Below are positions 43,562 to 51,383 of a stretch of DNA of 64,000 bases, in pieces (positions within the stretch are counted from its first letter, which is position 1; the number at the start of each line of letters is the position of its first letter). A model generated the notes under the pieces. That model saw nothing but the letters and a program-made list of their open reading frames with translations. It was not told the origin of the DNA and did no database searches. The translations under genes and the position numbers were made by a program. Source of the stretch: Marinactinospora thermotolerans DSM 45154 (GTDB taxonomy: Bacteria > Actinomycetota > Actinomycetes > Streptosporangiales > Streptosporangiaceae). The stretch covers positions 1 to 64,000 of the forward strand of contig NZ_FUWS01000014.1 in the NCBI RefSeq assembly GCF_900167435.1, written 5' to 3'.

Positions 43562-44107
43562 TCAGCCGCTCTCGGGGGACAGGAAGACCACGATCTCCTC
43601 CCCGGGCTCGTCCGGTTCGGTCGCCTCCTGCCAGCCGCGACCACGGTAGAAACCGACCGCCTGCGGGGACCGGGCCGAGGTGACCAGCCAGGCCCGCCCC
43701 CGCGGAGCGCGCCCGCGCATCGTGTCGAGCAGGCGCGTGCCCAGGCCGGCGCCACGCCCCTCGGGAACGACGGCGAGCTCGTCGACCTCCAGGGCGTCGA
43801 CGAGCCGGACACGCACCCGCTCCGCGCCGAGACGGCGGGTGACGTCGGGGTAGCGGCGGTCCGTGGGAAACGGCGCCTGGGTCAGCCAGGCCGTGGCGAA
43901 CCCCAAGGGGTGCGCCTGGTCACCCGCCAGCGCCGCCACGAACCCGGGGCGCAGGACGTCGGTCCGCAGCCGGCGGGCGAACAGCCCGACCCCTTCCTCC
44001 GGTTCGTTCCACGGCGGCGCGCCGAAGACCCTGCGGTACATCTCCACGAGCGCCGGTGCGACCTCCAACGCCTCCGCGCCCTCATACACCCGGATCCGCA
44101 CGCCCAC
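43562..44107 (-). CDS. GNAT-family N-acetyltransferase
   Basis: A 181-residue GNAT protein. The acetyl-CoA-binding block is VDELAVVPEGRGAGLGTRLL (motif A with R/Q-x-x-G-x-G/A), followed by AWLVTSARSPQAVGFYRGRGW. GTG 44107 or 44101 is the start, with AGGGGG upstream. The substrate is unknown. It stands alone between an IS remnant and a membrane protein gene. Confidence 0.85.
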   Translation of the reverse strand: MGVRIRVYEGAEALEVAPALVEMYRRVFGAPPWNEPEEGVGLFARRLRTDVLRPGFVAALAGDQAHPLGFATAWLTQAPFPTDRRYPDVTRRLGAERVRVRLVDALEVDELAVVPEGRGAGLGTRLLDTMRGRAPRGRAWLVTSARSPQAVGFYRGRGWQEATEPDEPGEEIVVFLSPESG

Positions 44108-44431
44108 GCCCCCTCCACGACTTCCTGCCGTCCCACGACTTCCCCCTGTGTCGCCCGTCACTCTCGCAGGCGCCACGCGGTGCGGCAAGCACACGCGGCC
44201 CTCTCCGCGTTCCCGGGGAAGGGGCCGGGTACCCGGCCGGGGCCCGGGGCGGGACGGTGTCGCCTCGGCGTCCACCGCGCCACGGGACGCCGCCAGGCGG
44301 GACCGGCTTCCCCGCGCTCAGCCTCCCCCGCCGCGCTCCCCTCCGGGGTGTTTGTCCCCTCACCGCGCGGGCAGCCGCCCTGCGGGCGGCGAAGCCGCCG
44401 CCCTGTCCCGACGCAGGAGGACGGAGGCAAG
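44108..44431. other. Intergenic region, no gene seen
   Basis: About 320 nt between divergently transcribed genes. It is GC-rich with no supported frame. It should contain the promoters of the GNAT gene and of the small membrane protein gene. Confidence 0.4.
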
Positions 44432-44965
44432 ATGAACGGCGTTTTCTCGCGCGGCGCGCTCTACGGACTGCTGGCCGGCGCCGCCGGCACCCTGGTGATG
44501 ACGCTCGGCGAACGGCTGGAGCAGCGGTTCACCGGCCGGCCCGACTCTCAGGTGCCGGCGCGGACCCTGGAGCGCCTCACCGGCCGGCCCGAGCCCTCCC
44601 GCGGCACCGGCCCGGCCATGCACGTCGGCCAAGGGGTGCTTCTGGGCGCCGTACGCGGGGTCATGTCCTGCGCGGGCCTGCGCGGCCCGTGGGCGTCGGC
44701 GATGTTCGGCGTGGTCCGCCTGACCTCCGACCAGATCCTGGAGAACGCGACCGGGGTCGGCGCTCCCCCCTGGACCTGGCCGCGCCGGGAACTCGCCGTC
44801 GACCTCGCCCACAAGGCGGTCTACGCCTTCGCCACCGGCCTGGTCAGCGACCTGCTGGCCGCACGCCACGGTCCCGGCCCCGGTCTGCGGCACGCCGAAC
44901 TGCTCCCCGGGCGGCACGAGGACGTCGGGCCGCTCCCCCGGCCCCGGCGGGCTCCGGGAGGCTGA
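44432..44965 (+). CDS. Small predicted membrane protein, unknown function
   Basis: A 177-residue protein starting at ATG 44432 with GGAGGCAAG upstream. Hydrophobic segments occur at about residues 8-27 (LYGLLAGAAGTLVMTLG), 66-84 (VGQGVLLGAVRGVMSCAGL), 86-98 and 130-145 (VYAFATGLVSDLLAA). Conserved-looking polar residues lie in LGERLEQRFTGRPDSQVPAR. I do not recognise the family; it resembles DUF-type proteins common in actinobacteria. It precedes the CDGSH gene by 43 nt in the same direction. Confidence 0.7.
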   Translation: MNGVFSRGALYGLLAGAAGTLVMTLGERLEQRFTGRPDSQVPARTLERLTGRPEPSRGTGPAMHVGQGVLLGAVRGVMSCAGLRGPWASAMFGVVRLTSDQILENATGVGAPPWTWPRRELAVDLAHKAVYAFATGLVSDLLAARHGPGPGLRHAELLPGRHEDVGPLPRPRRAPGG

Positions 44966-45008
44966 CCCCTCCCCGGTTACCCCGGCCACCGTCGGGTAGC
45001 CGGGGAGC

Positions 45009-45272
45009 GTGGAGACGTCCGAAGGCACAGACGCGGTGACGGTGACCCCGTGCGAGAACGGCCCCCTGCTCCTTAGAGGCGCGTTCCGGCTGACCACCCA
45101 CGAGGGCGAGGAGATCGACCCCGGCCGGCGCACGGTCGCACTGTGCCGGTGCGGCGCCTCAGCCGTGAAACCGTTCTGCGACGGCTCCCACAAGGCGATC
45201 GGCTTCGTCGCGCCCAGCGGTGCCGAGGTCGCGCCACGCGAGGATCCTCCCCCGGACGGCGCGCCGACGTAG
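45009..45272 (+). CDS. CDGSH iron-sulfur domain protein
   Basis: An 87-residue protein from GTG 45009 (GGGGAGC upstream). The [2Fe-2S] motif is complete: CRCGASAVKPFCDGSHKAIGF, i.e. C-x-C-x(8)-C-D-G-S-H, at about residues 46-66 (written in part). CDGSH proteins handle [2Fe-2S] clusters in redox or iron homeostasis. The last 114 nt overlap, antisense, the 3' end of the glycosyltransferase gene. The neighbouring diiron heme-oxygenase-like gene suggests an electron-transfer or cluster-supply partnership. Confidence 0.9.
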   Translation: METSEGTDAVTVTPCENGPLLLRGAFRLTTHEGEEIDPGRRTVALCRCGASAVKPFCDGSHKAIGFVAPSGAEVAPREDPPPDGAPT

Positions 45273-46217
45273 CGCCCTGGAGGGGTGCGCGGCCACCCGC
45301 AGGCGTCCTCCCGCGTAGGCCACCCCCCTGCCGCTGACCGCGGCGGCCAGCGCCCCCCAGCTGCACACCCCGCGCTCGAGCACCCACACCGGGGCCAGCA
45401 GGCTGGCCCGGAGCGGGAACACCCGGGTCCCCTCCCCCCTGCGCCTGCCCCACTCGGCCAGCGCGACCAGCGCGCCGGCCCCCGCGGCCAGCGCCCGGTA
45501 ATGACGTCCCCGCAGCGCGACGCCCACGGCCGGCAGCACCGCCAGGAACAGCGCCATGCGCAACGGCTGTGCGGTGTCGTCGTAGGCCTGGCGAAGCCGC
45601 TGGTCCCAAAAGCGCCTCGTGGTGGGGGGCCGCCGTCGGACGTGCAGATGGGCCGGCCGGACCTCCACCCCGCCGTGCGCCCGTACGGTACGGATCAACT
45701 CCAGGTTCTCGAACAGGACATCACCGTCGTATCCCCCCATGCGCAGGAAGGTCGACCGGCGCACCCCGAAGGTGCCCGGATAGTCGTGGCCCACGCCACG
45801 GTTGAGAAGGGTGCGCGCGGTGTCCCAGAGGGCGTGCCAGGGGAGCGGGTCGAAGTAGTTCTGCGGTCGCACGAGGTCGGCGTGTTCCAGCAGGGCGGCG
45901 ACATCCGCCAGTGCGCGCGCGTCGTAGCGGACGTCGTCGTCGGCGACGATCACCCGCTCCGCCCCGGCGTGCCGCATCCCCGTGAGCACGCCCCACACCT
46001 TCCCGTTGGCGCACCGCAGGTCCGGGTCGGGGCGGAGATGGGTGACCAGTCCCGCCCAGGCGCGGGCGTGGGCGGCGAAGACCTCCGGCGGGGACCCGTC
46101 CACGACGAGCACCTCGGCCCGGGCGGCGATGCGGCGCAGGTAGCCGGTCAGCTCGGCCAGTCCCTCGTCCCCCTCCCACCGGAGGGGGAGCACGTAGGAC
46201 AGCGCGGGGGCGTTCAC
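45159..46217 (-). CDS. GT2-family glycosyltransferase
   Basis: A 352-residue GT-A enzyme from GTG 46217 (overlaps the previous stop, GTGA). The N-terminus is LSYVLPLRWEGDEGLAELTG, and the DxD-type motif is RVIVADDDVRYDARALADV near residue 92. Further parts are YPGTFGVRRSTFLRMGGYDG and FENLELIRTVRAHGG. C-terminal hydrophobic segments (ALFLAVLPAVGVAL) suggest membrane association. The final about 38 residues are encoded antisense to the CDGSH gene. The acceptor is unknown. It is the third gene of a diiron-protein operon. Confidence 0.85.
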   Translation of the reverse strand: MNAPALSYVLPLRWEGDEGLAELTGYLRRIAARAEVLVVDGSPPEVFAAHARAWAGLVTHLRPDPDLRCANGKVWGVLTGMRHAGAERVIVADDDVRYDARALADVAALLEHADLVRPQNYFDPLPWHALWDTARTLLNRGVGHDYPGTFGVRRSTFLRMGGYDGDVLFENLELIRTVRAHGGVEVRPAHLHVRRRPPTTRRFWDQRLRQAYDDTAQPLRMALFLAVLPAVGVALRGRHYRALAAGAGALVALAEWGRRRGEGTRVFPLRASLLAPVWVLERGVCSWGALAAAVSGRGVAYAGGRLRVAAHPSRALRRRAVRGRILAWRDLGTAGRDEADRLVGAVAERFHG

Positions 46218-47233
46218 GCCGGCACCCCCCGGCCGATCGGATCCTCGGCGCGCAGCGAGGACGCGCCCCGCTCCCAGCAGGCCATCAGGTGCGTGGCGAA
46301 CAGGCGGTCCAGTTCCAGGCAGACCCCGGCTCCGAACAGCACCTCCCCGGCGAGGTCGGGGTGCTCCCCGGCGAAGCGGCCGCACATGTCGTGCGCGGCG
46401 ACCTGCTCGTGGACCGCGTCGGCCTGGACGTGCTCGTCGTAGAAGAGGCGCGTCGCCGCGTCGGCCCCCAACCGGCGCAGCCCCGCCGAATAGGCGCGGT
46501 TGGGCAGGGAGGAGGTCATCTCGAAGGCCGCGAGGTGTCCCAGCAGCGCGGCCCGCCGGGACCGGTGCAGGCCAAGGAGTGACATGGCGTTGTCCACGGC
46601 GAGGGTGATCGCGGGAGCCCGTTCGACGTGGGCTCCGTAGGAGTCGTCCAGGCCCAGGCCGCGCATGGTCGCGCGGAACAGCTCGGCGTGCATGCGTTCG
46701 GGCCGGCCGCCCCCGTACTCGTCGGCCTGGATCTCCACCAGGGCGGCCTTGGCCGCCCCCCTCAACCGGGGGATCGCCCAGGTGTGCGGATCGGCCTCCT
46801 TCAGGTGGTAGACCGAGCGGTGGACGACGAACTCGCGGAACTGCTCGATGTCCGCGCGACGTTGCAGGAACGCCGACAGCGACGGTCCCGTCTCCCGCGC
46901 GGTCATCCGCGCCAACGCGCGTGGGACCTCGGCGGCGTCGACGCGGGGCAGCGGCGGCACCACCGCGCGCAGCGCCTGTTCGAAGCGCCGCTCCAGCCCG
47001 CGGCGGACCCGCAACAGCGAGGGCTCCCACTCCCAGTCGGCGGCGACCTCGTCGTAGCCGTTGTAGTGCAGCTCGTAGCAGACGTGGAGGGCGAGCTGGA
47101 GATCCTCGTCGTGGAGCGCGGTGTCGGCCGGTCCCCGCGCGGGCGCCGGCAGGGGCGCCAGCTCGCCGACAGGGCCGGTCAGCTCGGCGAACAGCGCTTC
47201 GGTGAGCGGTCCGCGGGGCGTGGGCAGCGGCAT
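46214..47233 (-). CDS. Iron-containing redox enzyme family (heme-oxygenase-like diiron) protein
   Basis: A 339-residue helical protein of the heme-oxygenase-like diiron oxidase/oxygenase (HDO) type. Candidate metal ligands are E134 and H143 (FREFVVHRSVYH), E167 (ALVEIQADEYGGG), H182 (MHAELF), E238 (AFEMTSS), H268 (YDEHVQADAVHE), D272 and H275. The spacing E...D-EYG-G...MH is typical for the family. Known HDO members perform N-oxygenation, C-C cleavage or desaturation. ATG 47233 follows AGGAGA. The operon with a methyltransferase and GT2 suggests a small-molecule or lipid modification; the substrate is unknown. Confidence 0.87.
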   Translation of the reverse strand: MPLPTPRGPLTEALFAELTGPVGELAPLPAPARGPADTALHDEDLQLALHVCYELHYNGYDEVAADWEWEPSLLRVRRGLERRFEQALRAVVPPLPRVDAAEVPRALARMTARETGPSLSAFLQRRADIEQFREFVVHRSVYHLKEADPHTWAIPRLRGAAKAALVEIQADEYGGGRPERMHAELFRATMRGLGLDDSYGAHVERAPAITLAVDNAMSLLGLHRSRRAALLGHLAAFEMTSSLPNRAYSAGLRRLGADAATRLFYDEHVQADAVHEQVAAHDMCGRFAGEHPDLAGEVLFGAGVCLELDRLFATHLMACWERGASSLRAEDPIGRGVPA

Positions 47234-47262
47234 ACGGTTCTCCTCTCCAATAGCACGTGGGG

Positions 47263-48000
47263 TCAGCAGGGGCGGCGGTAGACCGTGACGTGCTCGCGGC
47301 TGGTGTCGGCGAAGGGGGTACCGTGCCAGTCGGACCAGCGATGTTCCAGCTCCAGCCCGGCCAGCCGGGCCATCAGGTCCAGCTCCGCCGGCCAGGCGTA
47401 ACGGTGGTTGGCGGGCAGCAGCCGCACCCCGCGCGAGGTGACGCGCACCTTGGTGGTGCGCATGTACTGGTCGGCGGGGAAGATCTGCGCCGCCTCCAGC
47501 ACGACCTCGTCCTCGGCCACCGACAGCAGCCGTACGGCCTTGCCGTCCCGGAAGGCCGCCGAATCCGGCGTCCACGCCTCGACGACGAAACGGCCGCCCT
47601 CGCGCAGGTGGGCCGCCGCGTTGGCGAAACAGCGGACCTGCGCCTCCTGGGAGGGCAGGGCGAAGACGGTGTTCAGGGCGAGCAGCACCAGGGCGAACTC
47701 GCCCTCCACCCGGGTCTGGGAGAAGTCGCCCATGTGGACGGGGATGTCGCGGCCCCCGGGTTTGGCCCGCAGCTGGGCGGCCATGTCGGGCGAGCCCTCG
47801 ATACCGGCCACGGGGATGCCTCGCTGTACCAGGGGCAGGGCCAGGCGTCCGGTGCCGACCCCGAACTCCAGGACGGGTCCGCCCTCGCTCAGCTTGGCCA
47901 GACAGGCCACGGCCGCCTCGGTCGGCAGCCCCTTGACGGTCGCGTCGTAGATGTCGGCGATACGGCTTCCGTAGTCGGACGGATCGAAGTCCGGCTCCAT
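47263..48000 (-). CDS. Class I SAM-dependent methyltransferase
   Basis: A 245-residue methyltransferase with motif I VLEFGVGTGRLALPL, motif II VAGIEGSPDMAAQL, a GEFALVLLALNTVFAL motif IV and LREGGRFVVEAWTP. ATG 48000 has GGGGAG upstream; GTG 48015 is possible. It is the first gene of the minus-strand unit that continues with the diiron protein and GT2. The substrate is unknown. Confidence 0.88.
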   Translation of the reverse strand: MEPDFDPSDYGSRIADIYDATVKGLPTEAAVACLAKLSEGGPVLEFGVGTGRLALPLVQRGIPVAGIEGSPDMAAQLRAKPGGRDIPVHMGDFSQTRVEGEFALVLLALNTVFALPSQEAQVRCFANAAAHLREGGRFVVEAWTPDSAAFRDGKAVRLLSVAEDEVVLEAAQIFPADQYMRTTKVRVTSRGVRLLPANHRYAWPAELDLMARLAGLELEHRWSDWHGTPFADTSREHVTVYRRPC

Positions 48001-48147
48001 GGCGGCTCCCCACACTCGGCTCGGCCGCCAGCTACCCCCCGCCCCTTGCGCGAAACGACGGTCCGTTCTCGCGGGAGTCCGCCCGCGCCCCCGCGCCGCA
48101 CCCTGTTCGGGAGGAGCCCGCCCGCGCCTCCCGTCGTGGGGCTCGGG

Positions 48148-51120
48148 TCACGTCTCCTCGCGCGTCCCGCCGGAGGGGGCGCCCGGTCCGCGGTCCCCTC
48201 CGGCGCGCAGTGCCGCGTGCAGGACCTCGGCGAGGTGCCGGGCGCGCCGGTCGGTGCCCTGGGCGATCTGGGTGCGGCAGGAGAAGCCGTCGGCGAGGAC
48301 CAGGTCCTCGCGGGCCGCGGCCCGGACCTTGGGATAGAGCTCGCGCTCGGCGCAGGCCTGGGAGACCTCCCAGTGGCCGCGTTCGAACCCGAAGTTGCCG
48401 GCGAGGCCGCAGCAGCCCGAACCGATCCTGTCGGACCGGACGCGCAGACGCCCCAGCACCCTCAGGTCGGCGTCGAAGGACCCCTTCGCCTCCTGGTGGC
48501 AGTGGATCTGGGTGACGGCGTCGATGTCGAGGTCGCCGAAGGGCCAGGGACCGTCGTGGGCGTCGACGAGCTCGGCCAGCGTGGTGACCAGCCGGGCCAG
48601 ACGGTGCGCGCGCGGATCGTCCGGCAGCAGCTCGCGCGCCTCCTCCCGCAGCATCACGGCGCAGGAGGGCTCCAGCACCAGCACCGGCCTGTCCGCGGCG
48701 AGCGCCTCCTCCAGGGCGCGCAACGCCCCGCGCAGGGCGCGGCGGGCCGGGCCGAGCTGGCCGGTGGAGTGCCAGGTGAGTCCACAGCACACGGGGCCGC
48801 GCGGTAGTTCGACGCGGTATCCCAGCGTCTCCAGTACCTCGACCGCGGCTCGGCCGGGTCCGGGATCGTGGAAGTTGGTGAAGGTGTCGGGCCACAGCAC
48901 GACGGTTCGGGGACTCAGGGATGTCGCTTCTTGTGCCGCTGCCTTTACATTGTAGATTTTCTGGGGTGAGGGGCGCCTCCCCATCCACCGGCGCAGCGTC
49001 GGCGCGGCGAAGCCGATCATCTCTCGCCTCGGCTCGATCCCCGCGATCCGCTTGACCAGGGCGGCCACCCCCGGGCGGGCCGTCAGCGCGTTGACCGCCC
49101 GCGCGACCGGAGCCGCCACGGTCACCAGACGGGACCACACCGGAAGCCACCCCATCGACAGGTGGGCCAACGGACGGGGTCGCCAGGCGTAGTGGCGGTG
49201 CAGGAACTCCGCCTTGTAGGTGGCCATGTCCACGTTGACCGGACACGCGGTGGCGCAGGCCTTGCACGACAGGCACAGGTCCAGCGCGTCACGCACCTCG
49301 GTGGAGCGCCACCCACGCGGCAGGGTCTGTCCCCTGAGCATCTCGGCCAGCACCCGGGCCCTGCCTCGCGTGGAGTGGACCTCGTCCCGGGTCGCCTTGA
49401 AGGAGGGGCACATCGATCCGGCGTGCAGCGTGCGACACGACCCCACCCCCACGCAACGGCCGACCGCGCGGGCGAAGGACCCGCCGTCGCCGCTCAGCGC
49501 GTGCACGGGAACGAGGTCCAGGCGATCGTGCCCCGGCCCGGGGCGGACCTCGGCGTCCAGCGGGGCCGGATCGACCAGCACCCCGGGATTGAGCAGCCGC
49601 TCCGGGTCGAACACCTCCTTGAAGGCGGCGAAGGCCGCCAGCGTCTGCGGACCGTACATGCGCGGCAGCAGCTCGGAGCGGGCCCGGCCGTCACCGTGCT
49701 CTCCGGACACCGAACCGCCGTGCGCGGCGACGAGATCGGCGGCGTCGGCCATGAACGCCCGGTAGGCGGCGAGCCCGTGTTCGGTGTGCAGATCGTAGTC
49801 ACAGCGCAGGTGCAGGCACCCCTCGCCGAAATGGCCGTAGGGGATACCGCGCAGCCCGTGGGAGTCCATCAACCGGTAGAGGTCGCGCAGGTAGTCGGCG
49901 AGCGCGCCCACCGGTACGGCGGAGTCCTCCCAGCCCGCCCACGCCTCGCCGCCGTCGGCCATCCGCGCGGCGATGCCCGCCCCGGCCTCGCGGATGGCCC
50001 AGAGGGCACGCGCCTGGGCCGGGTCGGTCACCACCCGCGCGCTCGCCGCGGGGAAACGCTCGGCGACCAACGCCGTGACGGCTCGCGCGGCCGCCATGGC
50101 CTGTTCGGTGTCGGCGCCACCCACCTCGCAGTACAGCCATCCGTCACCGGGGGGAAGTTCGCCACCCGCCTGTTCGCGGCCGGGCCGGGTCCGCAACGCG
50201 TCGATGAGGTCGCGGGCCATGCCCTCCACGGTCAAGACGTCACAGCGCGCCACATCGGCGGCCGCGGTCGCCGCCTCGAAGACGTCGGGGAACCCGAAGA
50301 CCACCAGGAGGCGCACCGGAGGGGAGGGGACGAGCCGGACGGTGGCCTCGGTGACCACCGCGCACGTGCTCTCGCTGCCGACCAGGGCCTTGGCGACGTC
50401 GAAACCGTTCTCGGGCAGCAGGTGGTGCAGGCCGTAACCGGAGACCTGGCGGCTGAAGCGCCCCAGTTCGGTGCGTAGGGGGACGAGGTGACGGTCGCGC
50501 AGGCGGCGCAGCCGGTCGTCGATGTCGGGGTCTCCGCTGCTCCCCCGCCCGGCGTCGATGGCGCGGCCGTCGGCGAGCAGTCCCCGCAGCCCGATCACGT
50601 TGTCGGCGGTGGTCCCCCAGCGCACCGAGTGCGGACCGCAGGCGTTGTTGCCGATCATCCCGCCGATCGTGCAGCGGGAGTGGGTGGAGGGGTCGGGGCC
50701 GAAGGTCAGCCCGTGCGCCGCCGCCGCGGCGCGCAGGTCGTCCAGCACGACACCGGGCTGCACGACGGCCGTGCGCGTCCCGGGGTCGATGGAGACGATG
50801 CGGTCCATGTGCCGGGAGAAGTCCAGCACGATGCCCTCGCCGATCGCGTTGCCGGCGATGGAGGTGCCACCCCCGCGCGCGGTGACCGGGGTGCGGCTCT
50901 CCCGCGCGACCTCCAGCACCCGGGCGACGTCGTCAGCGTCTCGGGGCAGCACGACGGCCGACGGCGGGATCCGAAAGACCGAGCCGTCGGAGACGTAGGC
51001 GGCCCGGGTCGTCGCGTCGCCGCGCACGACCTCGGCCGGGAGGACCCGCCGCAGGCGTTCGATCACCTCCCGCGCGTTGTCTCCCGCCGCCGCACGCGCC
51101 TGTTCCCGCCTGACCACCAC
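48148..51120 (-). CDS. Fused FAD-linked oxidase / Fe-S D-2-hydroxyacid dehydrogenase
   Basis: A 990-residue protein with four parts: an FAD_binding_4 domain (residues about 35-200; VTARGGGTSIAGNAIGEGIV), an FAD-oxidase C domain (to about 530, ending PYGHFGEGCLHLRCDYD and SGEHGDGRARS), a 4Fe-4S domain (CVGVGSCR and CLSCKACATACPVN), and two CCG domains (VCCGLTWH, GCCGLAGNFGFE). This is the YdiJ-like architecture linked to D-lactate or D-2-hydroxyglutarate oxidation. GTG 51120 is the selected start, since upstream sequence is low-complexity. It stands alone and would complement lutABC if its substrate is D-lactate. Confidence 0.9.
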   Translation of the reverse strand: MVVRREQARAAAGDNAREVIERLRRVLPAEVVRGDATTRAAYVSDGSVFRIPPSAVVLPRDADDVARVLEVARESRTPVTARGGGTSIAGNAIGEGIVLDFSRHMDRIVSIDPGTRTAVVQPGVVLDDLRAAAAAHGLTFGPDPSTHSRCTIGGMIGNNACGPHSVRWGTTADNVIGLRGLLADGRAIDAGRGSSGDPDIDDRLRRLRDRHLVPLRTELGRFSRQVSGYGLHHLLPENGFDVAKALVGSESTCAVVTEATVRLVPSPPVRLLVVFGFPDVFEAATAAADVARCDVLTVEGMARDLIDALRTRPGREQAGGELPPGDGWLYCEVGGADTEQAMAAARAVTALVAERFPAASARVVTDPAQARALWAIREAGAGIAARMADGGEAWAGWEDSAVPVGALADYLRDLYRLMDSHGLRGIPYGHFGEGCLHLRCDYDLHTEHGLAAYRAFMADAADLVAAHGGSVSGEHGDGRARSELLPRMYGPQTLAAFAAFKEVFDPERLLNPGVLVDPAPLDAEVRPGPGHDRLDLVPVHALSGDGGSFARAVGRCVGVGSCRTLHAGSMCPSFKATRDEVHSTRGRARVLAEMLRGQTLPRGWRSTEVRDALDLCLSCKACATACPVNVDMATYKAEFLHRHYAWRPRPLAHLSMGWLPVWSRLVTVAAPVARAVNALTARPGVAALVKRIAGIEPRREMIGFAAPTLRRWMGRRPSPQKIYNVKAAAQEATSLSPRTVVLWPDTFTNFHDPGPGRAAVEVLETLGYRVELPRGPVCCGLTWHSTGQLGPARRALRGALRALEEALAADRPVLVLEPSCAVMLREEARELLPDDPRAHRLARLVTTLAELVDAHDGPWPFGDLDIDAVTQIHCHQEAKGSFDADLRVLGRLRVRSDRIGSGCCGLAGNFGFERGHWEVSQACAERELYPKVRAAAREDLVLADGFSCRTQIAQGTDRRARHLAEVLHAALRAGGDRGPGAPSGGTREET

Positions 51121-51383
51121 GTGATCAGTCCTATCAGTCCGCGCCGGTCCGGCGCGAGGGTCCCGGCGGCGCCCGCCGGGACCGCCCCCTCGGCGCGGCC
51201 GGGGCCTGCGTCGCGGCGCCCCGCCCGGCGCCCGCGCGGGCGGCGAAGGGCCGCGGCGGGCTCCGGCGGCCCGGAGAGCGCGTCCTTCCGCCCGCCCCGT
51301 CCCTCCCCGGCGGGTCCTCCTCCGGCCGCCGTTTCCCCCTCGTCCACTCGCGTGGGCGGGCATGGCGGTCATAGGCTCGGGCC

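Follow-up and report, generated by a model that had tools for sequence, protein, structure and literature searches.

Heme-oxygenase-like diiron oxygenases and their candidate partners

The closest described relatives of the system considered here are the heme-oxygenase-like diiron oxygenases (HDOs) of the SznF/RohS/HrmI branch, which are N-oxygenases; FlcD, also a member of the long-chain branch, performs carbon excision and not N-oxygenation. To our knowledge, NEET proteins, which carry the CDGSH motif, have no known role as dedicated one-electron donors. The 3H/4C set of metal ligands is reported to have been first observed in SznF, and the words reductant, ferredoxin and electron donor are absent from the main text of an HDO review (PMC13108848). 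In mangotoxin biosynthesis, MboA is described as an HDO needing a dedicated Fe2S2 redox partner, MboB, and the two as possibly the first characterized pair of an HDO and its own redox partner (PMC13185094). Exchange of an HDO for a YqcI/YcgG-type protein has been published for SznF and ChmN (PMC10849742).

Organization of the locus

The locus lies within a 64,000-nucleotide stretch of Marinactinospora thermotolerans DSM 45154, the whole of which is referred to as the window. A sequence-only reading had placed a CDGSH protein, a diiron enzyme, a methyltransferase and a GT2 glycosyltransferase together here, and all four genes were confirmed, by Pfam and, for the GT2, by fold:

45009..45272, plus strand: CDGSH [2Fe-2S] protein P0004, 87 aa (PF09360, E 1.3e-18)
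45159..46217, minus strand: membrane-associated GT2-type glycosyltransferase P0002, 352 aa (PF13506, E 5.7e-5)
46214..47233, minus strand: heme-oxygenase-like diiron oxygenase (HDO) P0001, 339 aa (PF14518, E 5.7e-58)
47263..48000, minus strand: CcbJ-like class I SAM-dependent methyltransferase P0003, 245 aa (PF13649, E 1.4e-10)

The tight coupling of GT2 and HDO that had been proposed was also borne out, the HDO stop and GT2 start sharing 4 nt (GTGA), with GTG as the GT2 start codon. A 29-nt gap containing the ribosome-binding site GGAGAGGAG separates the methyltransferase stop from the HDO start, and methyltransferase, HDO and GT2 form a single tight operon. The CDGSH gene is convergent with the GT2 gene, the antisense overlap being the final 114 nt of the GT2 frame; as it is on the opposite strand, it lies outside this operon. 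A scan of 44300-48300 yielded neither a promoter nor a terminator consensus, and a scan of the 64-kb window no tRNA.

Three neighbouring genes were excluded from the set. The gene at 44432-44965 (plus strand), first in the interval marked out by the sequence-only reading, gave no match in Pfam and NCBIfam searches and has tblastn relatives in 0/80 related loci; the others are a GNAT gene (43562-44275) and an FAD/4Fe-4S oxidase gene (48148-51372), the latter common to locus L002 only.

Predicted fold and metal ligands of the HDO

The AlphaFold2 model of the HDO (pLDDT 94.5, pTM 0.92) adopts the heme-oxygenase-like fold, and its top structural match is HrmI (TM 0.74, Z 34.0), followed by SznF (Z 30.1; 313 residues aligned, 3.2 Å, 18% identity), RohS (28.7), FlcD (26.3-25.3), CADD (20.6), BesC (17.7), UndA (17.4) and PolF (17.0). 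Solved HDOs share only 13-19% sequence identity with it, and a profile search returned SznF (E 1.9e-16), RohS (3.2e-15) and HrmI (8.4e-14), with no others at E ≤0.01. A reading of the protein as an UndA-like fatty-acid decarboxylase was rejected, UndA ranking far below the N-oxygenases in the fold comparison.

Seven SznF-type metal ligands are predicted. E172, H182, E238, H268, D272 and H275 make up a His/carboxylate set on the core helices, and E146 is a seventh, auxiliary-helix glutamate (3H/4C) aligned with glutamate 189 of SznF. All seven positions, E146 included, are identical in 123/123 sequences. Two alignments were made: A1 comprises 20/22 loci (L011 and L019 were excluded for an in-frame stop), and A2 comprises the window together with 55 of the 78 loci free of stops. 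As a member of the SznF/RohS/HrmI branch, the HDO would be a dinuclear-metal, O2-activating enzyme.

Conservation of the HDO-CDGSH pair

The CDGSH protein resembles 3tbm (E 5.5e-14) and carries the 3Cys-1His cluster motif (CRCGASAVKPFCDGSH), which, as CXCX2(S/T)X3PXCDG(S/T)H, is intact in 80/80 related loci. Among these named loci, the best 80 of at least 517 relatives, the CDGSH gene begins no more than 4 kb from the HDO gene in 80/80; it adjoins the HDO in 22/22 full-length HDO loci from 60 genomes, the window's own counted, and in 23/24 loci of the window's class in a phylum-wide sample (60 rows representing 58 HDO loci, two genomes with split genes being counted once each). Conservation of the neighbourhood across actinomycetes, on which the sequence-only reading had staked its proposal, is thus found. 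In the other classes of that sample, 15/34 HDO loci have a CDGSH gene, 17/34 have none within ~4 kb and 2/34 were unscored, so CDGSH is not obligatory everywhere. Elsewhere than at HDO loci, the 60 genomes hold just nine tandem pairs and one single CDGSH match. With 1-4 CDGSH matches per several-megabase genome, fewer than one CDGSH-HDO pair would be expected by chance, a figure that is our own estimate and not computed by a tool.

The combined locus table retained 127/129 loci after removal of two HDO fragments; for the HDO tree, L031-L033 and L084, four duplicates, were also left out, and the label of L002 was assigned manually. On this tree the HDO-CDGSH arrangement changes at least 13 times, against three changes of presence, and CDGSH is found upstream and downstream of HDO, on the same and on the opposite strand. 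HDO and CDGSH distances correlate across 104 loci with an r of 0.78, uncontrolled for the species tree. No frame in the 80 loci and the window carries both motifs, so that no HDO-CDGSH fusion was recovered.

The constant core of the neighbourhood is HDO and CDGSH, with the GT2 optional (28/80) and the methyltransferase rarer (8/80) among the best 80 of at least 517 relatives. Neighbours were clustered in the 80 loci with a crude frame caller that may miss short genes. Other recurring HDO neighbours are seemingly lineage-bound: SDR, ABC, alcohol dehydrogenase and GCS2 genes and, where loci are Geodermatophilaceae-like, those for glutamine synthetase and GlnE. A literature search of openly licensed PMC papers found no CDGSH-HDO pair, absence from print being unproven by it.

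Glycosyltransferase, methyltransferase and exchange of the HDO

Pfam support for the GT2 is weak, PF13506 being its only match. Its model (pLDDT 90.7) confidently shows a membrane-associated GT-A fold with C-terminal helices, and the DXD-type motif D93-D94-D95 is unchanged across 28 sequences; the final ~37 residues are not conserved. Processive membrane GT2 members have a (Q/R)XXRW motif, and in place of this canonical form the window GT2 reads QRLRQ, with Q206 and R207 invariant and no W. An arsenosugar glycosyltransferase reading (TIGR04283) was rejected at 23.7 bits, below the cut-off of 182.

The GT2 is present in 11/60 genomes and adjoins the HDO in 11/11; it lies near the HDO in 28 of the 80 named loci. 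In the phylum sample it adjoins the HDO in 13/19 GT2 genomes, and among the remaining six, four copies lie beside a GntA-like gene and DUF1989, one is broken at a contig end, and that of genome G239 is away from both the HDO and a GntA-like gene. The GT2 therefore occurs almost only beside an HDO or a GntA-like N-oxygenase. The HDO tree implies no fewer than 19 gains or losses of the GT2, so its link to the HDO is looser.

The four GntA-associated copies belong to one deep-branching genus, in which the position next to this GT2 is taken not by the HDO but by a GntA-like heme guanidine N-oxygenase; the exchange is thus seen in four complete loci of a single genus. Of 346 genomes, only 8 have GntA-like matches, and the protein is absent from the window's genome. 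DUF1989 proteins are known as carboxyguanidine deiminases. That a heme enzyme oxygenating guanidine nitrogen can replace the HDO next to this GT2 narrows the search for a substrate to guanidines and amines.

Among solved structures, the methyltransferase is closest to CcbJ (4hgy, residues 23-272, E 1.7e-41), a characterized N-methyltransferase matched over the full length; a daptide methyltransferase reading (NCBIfam) was rejected at 76 bits, below the cut-off of 175. Relatives of at least 68% identity lie beside the HDO in 4/60 genomes, the window's counted. The methyltransferase adjoins the HDO in 8 of the 80 named loci, all eight with GT2, and in the 127-row table it is confined to GT2-bearing loci (13/13). 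Its place beside the HDO is taken in other lineages by a methyltransferase of HemK2 type (15 loci).

Proposed pathway and alternatives

The explanation we prefer, and to which we give an even chance, is that the HDO is a guanidine or amine N-oxygenase, CDGSH its dedicated redox partner, and the GT2 and methyltransferase tailoring enzymes. The HDO, as a diiron enzyme of the SznF/RohS/HrmI branch, would oxygenate a small substrate at a nitrogen that probably belongs to a guanidine or an amine, and CDGSH would take single electrons from a reductant, a flavin or a thiol, and pass them to the diferric HDO cofactor, allowing repeated turnover. Either before or after this step, the CcbJ-like methyltransferase would N-methylate the same molecule, to which the membrane-bound GT2 would add a sugar. 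The gene set and its conservation, the ligand set, the fold and the HDO/GntA-like exchange are computed results, whereas N-oxygenation, the substrate class, electron transfer through CDGSH, the sequence of steps and the product are inferred. That this represents a widespread, undescribed actinobacterial pathway, in which a CDGSH-driven HDO leads to a methylated, glycosylated, N-oxygenated metabolite with GntA-like replacement in one lineage, is a more tentative proposal that we regard as possible and somewhat doubtful. Of the two alternatives offered by the sequence-only reading, biosynthesis or repair, a small biosynthetic pathway is the better fit, because no repair gene pattern was found and the HDO groups with natural-product N-oxygenases; nor did the searched literature contain a described product, as that reading had supposed.

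The HDO may instead be a same-branch diiron enzyme of other chemistry, such as desaturation or C-C or C-N cleavage, for which an amine or guanidine substrate is not required. Function is reported to diverge among HDOs with a similar ligand set (PMC13108848), FlcD stands directly below the N-oxygenases in the fold ranking, and identity to solved HDOs is low. Two points count against N-oxygenation itself: FlcD of the long-chain branch excises carbon, and the best fold match, HrmI, has a 3H/3C set (PMC13108848) whereas the window HDO is 3H/4C. We consider other chemistry unlikely, since N-oxygenases make up all of the top three structural groups, SznF is the enzyme in which 3H/4C was originally found (PMC13108848) and a GntA-like guanidine N-oxygenase occupies the place of the HDO beside the GT2. 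For CDGSH, a role in supplying iron to the labile diiron site, or in protecting or repairing it, rather than in feeding electrons, would fit the genomic pairing just as well and is in line with the cluster lability reported for many HDOs (PMC13108848). MitoNEET is better known for cluster transfer, and its midpoint near 0 mV (PMC9737848) is high for a donor. NEET proteins, however, hand over [2Fe-2S] clusters and not two single irons, and the sole worked-out HDO partner, MboB, is a flavin and Fe2S2 reductase (PMC13185094), so we hold metal supply to be improbable.

A further view, to which we assign a similarly low probability, treats HDO and CDGSH as a general unit, for example in stress or detoxification, with GT2 and methyltransferase forming a separate pathway that is often adjacent. 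It draws on the 52/80 named HDO-CDGSH loci (best 80 of at least 517) that have no nearby GT2, on the repeated GT2 changes across the tree and on the HemK2-type neighbours of other lineages, and is opposed by the near confinement of the GT2 to HDO or GntA-like surroundings, the overlap of the HDO and GT2 frames and the restriction of the methyltransferase to loci with GT2. Adjacency of the four genes by shared ancestry or chance, without joint function, is very improbable. The window CDGSH gene, on the opposite strand, has no transcript in common with the rest, and the promoter and terminator scan is compatible with such a reading, but the HDO-CDGSH pair survives its many rearrangements and gene orders vary widely (CDGSH-HDO-methyltransferase-GT2 on one strand in L066; GT2-methyltransferase-HDO in L089 and L092); the 80-locus survey and the tree already make this unlikely.

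Comparison with known systems

The methyltransferase matches CcbJ of celesticetin biosynthesis over its full length, but the gene surroundings differ. ChmN, GntA and AglA, YqcI/YcgG heme guanidine N-oxygenases, are proteins unrelated to the HDO, and the GntA-like replacement in four loci parallels that of the SznF HDO domain by ChmN. With the HDO domain of SznF the window HDO shares its fold and the same seven aligned metal ligands, whereas it has no C-terminal cupin domain and does not lie beside arginine-pathway genes; we know of no CDGSH neighbour of SznF. HrmI and RohS, in the top group of structural matches, are likewise stand-alone proteins of similar length (17% identity), and relative to the 3H/3C set of HrmI (PMC13108848) the window HDO carries an extra carboxylate.

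With mitoNEET and bacterial CDGSH proteins, P0004 has PF09360 and the intact motif in common, and it differs in having no visible membrane anchor and in being an HDO partner by gene neighbourhood. If the preferred explanation is correct, bacterial NEET proteins would gain a concrete catalytic partner. MboA and the window HDO both have an Fe2S2-type partner encoded alongside, the CDGSH cluster being predicted, and the CDGSH gene is conserved beside the HDO in the window's class. MboB combines flavin and Fe2S2 and takes NADH, whereas P0004, a single CDGSH domain of 87 residues, has no flavin domain and does not combine NAD(P)H/flavin and Fe2S2 sites; it is therefore not an MboB-type reductase, and an additional reductase must come from elsewhere. 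Given such a reductase, CDGSH could act like MboB, and because it adjoins the HDO in the majority of loci across an entire class, it is a second, far more widespread redox-partner candidate.

Gene Arrangement

The neighbourhood comprises three consecutive minus-strand genes and a CDGSH gene that converges on them:

48000-47263, minus: CcbJ-like methyltransferase, PF13649 above cut-off
47233-46214, minus: heme-oxygenase-like diiron oxygenase (HDO), PF14518 above cut-off
46217-45159, minus: GT2 glycosyltransferase, PF13506 barely over cut-off (23.1 against 21.7 bits)
45009-45272, plus: 87-aa CDGSH protein, PF09360 above cut-off

The sequence-only reading had described the GT2 and diiron genes as tightly coupled, and indeed a GTGA is common to the HDO stop and the GT2 start; 29 nt separate the methyltransferase from the HDO. 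In antisense, the frames of GT2 and CDGSH share 114 nt (45159-45272); the GT2 tail there lacks conservation among relatives, its conserved part stopping short of the overlap. In L036 and L040 the matched stretches overlap to a smaller extent. A GC-rich inverted repeat, seen by eye and unreported by the terminator scan, lies at 44965-45008 between the CDGSH gene and gene 44432-44965, to which neither Pfam nor NCBIfam assigned a family. The methyltransferase strand also carries, further upstream, an FAD-linked oxidase with 4Fe-4S domains (48148-51372) that only the nearest relative, L002, has as well.

Conservation of the HDO-CDGSH Pair

In a set of 60 related genomes, including that of the window, the HDO query matched 27 and gave 22 full-length loci, all 22 of which are adjoined by a CDGSH gene. 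Of the 41 CDGSH matches listed, 22 are these genes, one stands alone, and the rest form nine tandem pairs at other sites. GT2 matched in 11 of the 60 genomes and methyltransferase relatives of at least 68% identity occur in four, in each case with the HDO adjoining; weaker methyltransferase matches are ubiquitous and uninformative. A search of 84,980 species genomes found a relative encoded in at least 517 of 597 candidate stretches, and the best 80 of these, chosen by similarity and hence biased to close relatives, cover many actinobacterial orders, among them Solirubrobacterales. Throughout these best 80 of at least 517, the HDO and CDGSH starts lie less than 4 kb apart (80/80) and the CDGSH cluster motif is intact (80/80), while GT2 is near the HDO in 28 loci (a 29th match is a fragment more than 10 kb off), the methyltransferase is present in eight, all with GT2, and gene 44432-44965 has relatives in none. 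Within the neighbourhood, conservation of which had been left to a survey, it is the HDO-CDGSH pair that is conserved at 22/22 and 80/80 HDO loci in these two sets; this pair is the core, to which GT2 and the methyltransferase are add-ons.

In a FastTree phylogeny built from 123 HDO loci, counting the fewest changes, CDGSH presence requires three and its arrangement among carriers at least 13, compared with six for methyltransferase presence and at least 19 for GT2 presence. CDGSH, HDO, methyltransferase and GT2 follow one another on a single strand in L066, L070 and L071, GT2, methyltransferase and HDO face an opposite-strand CDGSH gene in L089 and L092, and L035 has a third order, so that the pair is kept while its order shifts. 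Distances among HDOs correlate with those among the CDGSH proteins (r 0.78, 104 loci; 0/999 permutations that high), and with those of GT2 (r 0.76, 40 loci), though common descent alone could explain this. Two HDO genes share one 4-kb stretch, L117, with GT2 and a methyltransferase but without CDGSH.

In a phylum sample of 346 genomes drawn evenly, 58 HDO loci occur in 54 genomes. Of these loci, 38 have CDGSH alongside and 18 lack it over roughly 4 kb; the other two are interrupted by contig ends or split genes and count neither way. Nearly every locus in the class of the window is paired (23/24), and pairing is about half as common in other classes (15/34, with 17 lacking it, plus both interrupted loci); this result speaks more than any other here against an obligatory partnership with CDGSH.

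Possible Role of the CDGSH Protein

The CDGSH protein would pass electrons to the HDO. The HDO MboA needs MboB, which contains flavin and Fe2S2, for its second oxidation step, the two being perhaps the first such pair according to the authors (PMC13185094), and CDGSH proteins such as mitoNEET carry a redox-active [2Fe-2S] cluster (PMC9490426). MitoNEET is also described as a cluster-transfer protein whose midpoint is close to 0 mV (PMC9737848). Electron transfer is thus the likelier role, with supply of metal to the HDO as the main rival. In two loci of some of the same genomes (L144:1651-4929 and L145:287-4303), a single frame joins a ferritin-like PF12902 domain, a divergent 4Fe-4S Fer4_19 domain and two tandem CDGSH domains, a further case in which CDGSH occurs together with what may be a di-metal fold.

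Identity of the HDO and Tailoring Enzymes

A profile of 20 HDO relatives matched only the N-oxygenases SznF, RohS and HrmI in the PDB at E ≤0.01. The AlphaFold2 model (pLDDT 94.5) likewise has HrmI, SznF and RohS as its top Foldseek matches (TM 0.67-0.74), and VIA-align ranks HrmI (Z 34.0), SznF (30.1) and RohS (28.7) before FlcD (26.3-25.3), CADD (20.6), BesC (17.7), UndA (17.4) and PolF (17.0). Residues aligned with the seven SznF ligands are identical in 56 sequences and in 123/123; the SznF ligand numbering agrees by counting with the HDO-SznF profile alignment. A GCS2/YbdK-type carboxylate-amine ligase adjoins or lies near the HDO in three loci (L076:3261-4259, L087:8839-9777 and L118:2366-3355). 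According to a review, SznF is of the 3H/4C type, as are an estimated quarter or so of HDOs (PMC13108848).

The GT2 model (pLDDT 90.7) has a GT-A fold with C-terminal helices, and its nearest structures are membrane enzymes, for example hyaluronan synthase (Z 18.7), PcManGT (18.2) and cellulose synthase (17.6); its acceptor may lie at or near the membrane. The methyltransferase best matches CcbJ, followed by peptide N-terminal and amino-sugar N-methyltransferases, matches that fit nitrogen as its target. In some lineages a HemK2/MTQ2-type methyltransferase gives strong matches near the HDO (15 loci), mostly where the CcbJ-like enzyme is missing (L014, L016, L017, L019-L021, L076, L089, L092, L118, L124, L125, L127, L130 and L133).

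Exchange of the HDO for a Heme Enzyme

GT2 occurs in 19 of the 346 genomes, with the HDO beside it on the same contig in 13 and on a different contig in one (G239). The remaining five belong to a single genus, g166, and have no HDO match. Four of these share the order methyltransferase, GT2, GntA-like protein and DUF1989 (GT2 being broken into pieces in one, G293), and in the fifth a methyltransferase is followed by a contig end inside GT2. With NF041366, a model of heme-dependent N-hydroxylases with a cut-off of 145 bits, the GntA-like protein encoded in L140 reaches 275 bits; the model matches just eight of the 346 genomes, seven over the cut-off. The GntA-like heme N-oxygenase and DUF1989 adjoin GT2 in the g166 loci L138, L139, L140 and L142, a cyclase-family gene being next in the row in L140; both also occur in L153, a 3.6-kb stretch from which GT2 is absent.

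Of all the results, this exchange most strongly suggests that the HDO oxygenates nitrogen, perhaps that of a guanidine. Individually, N-oxygenating HDOs, NEET proteins and GT2 enzymes are already known; what is new is their combination. Members of the YqcI/YcgG family are reported to hydroxylate guanidine N-H (PMC12866846), and in the chalkophomycin pathway a heme guanidine N-oxygenase of this family is described in place of the HDO domain of SznF (PMC10849742); the GntA-like protein of the g166 loci belongs to the same family as that replacement.
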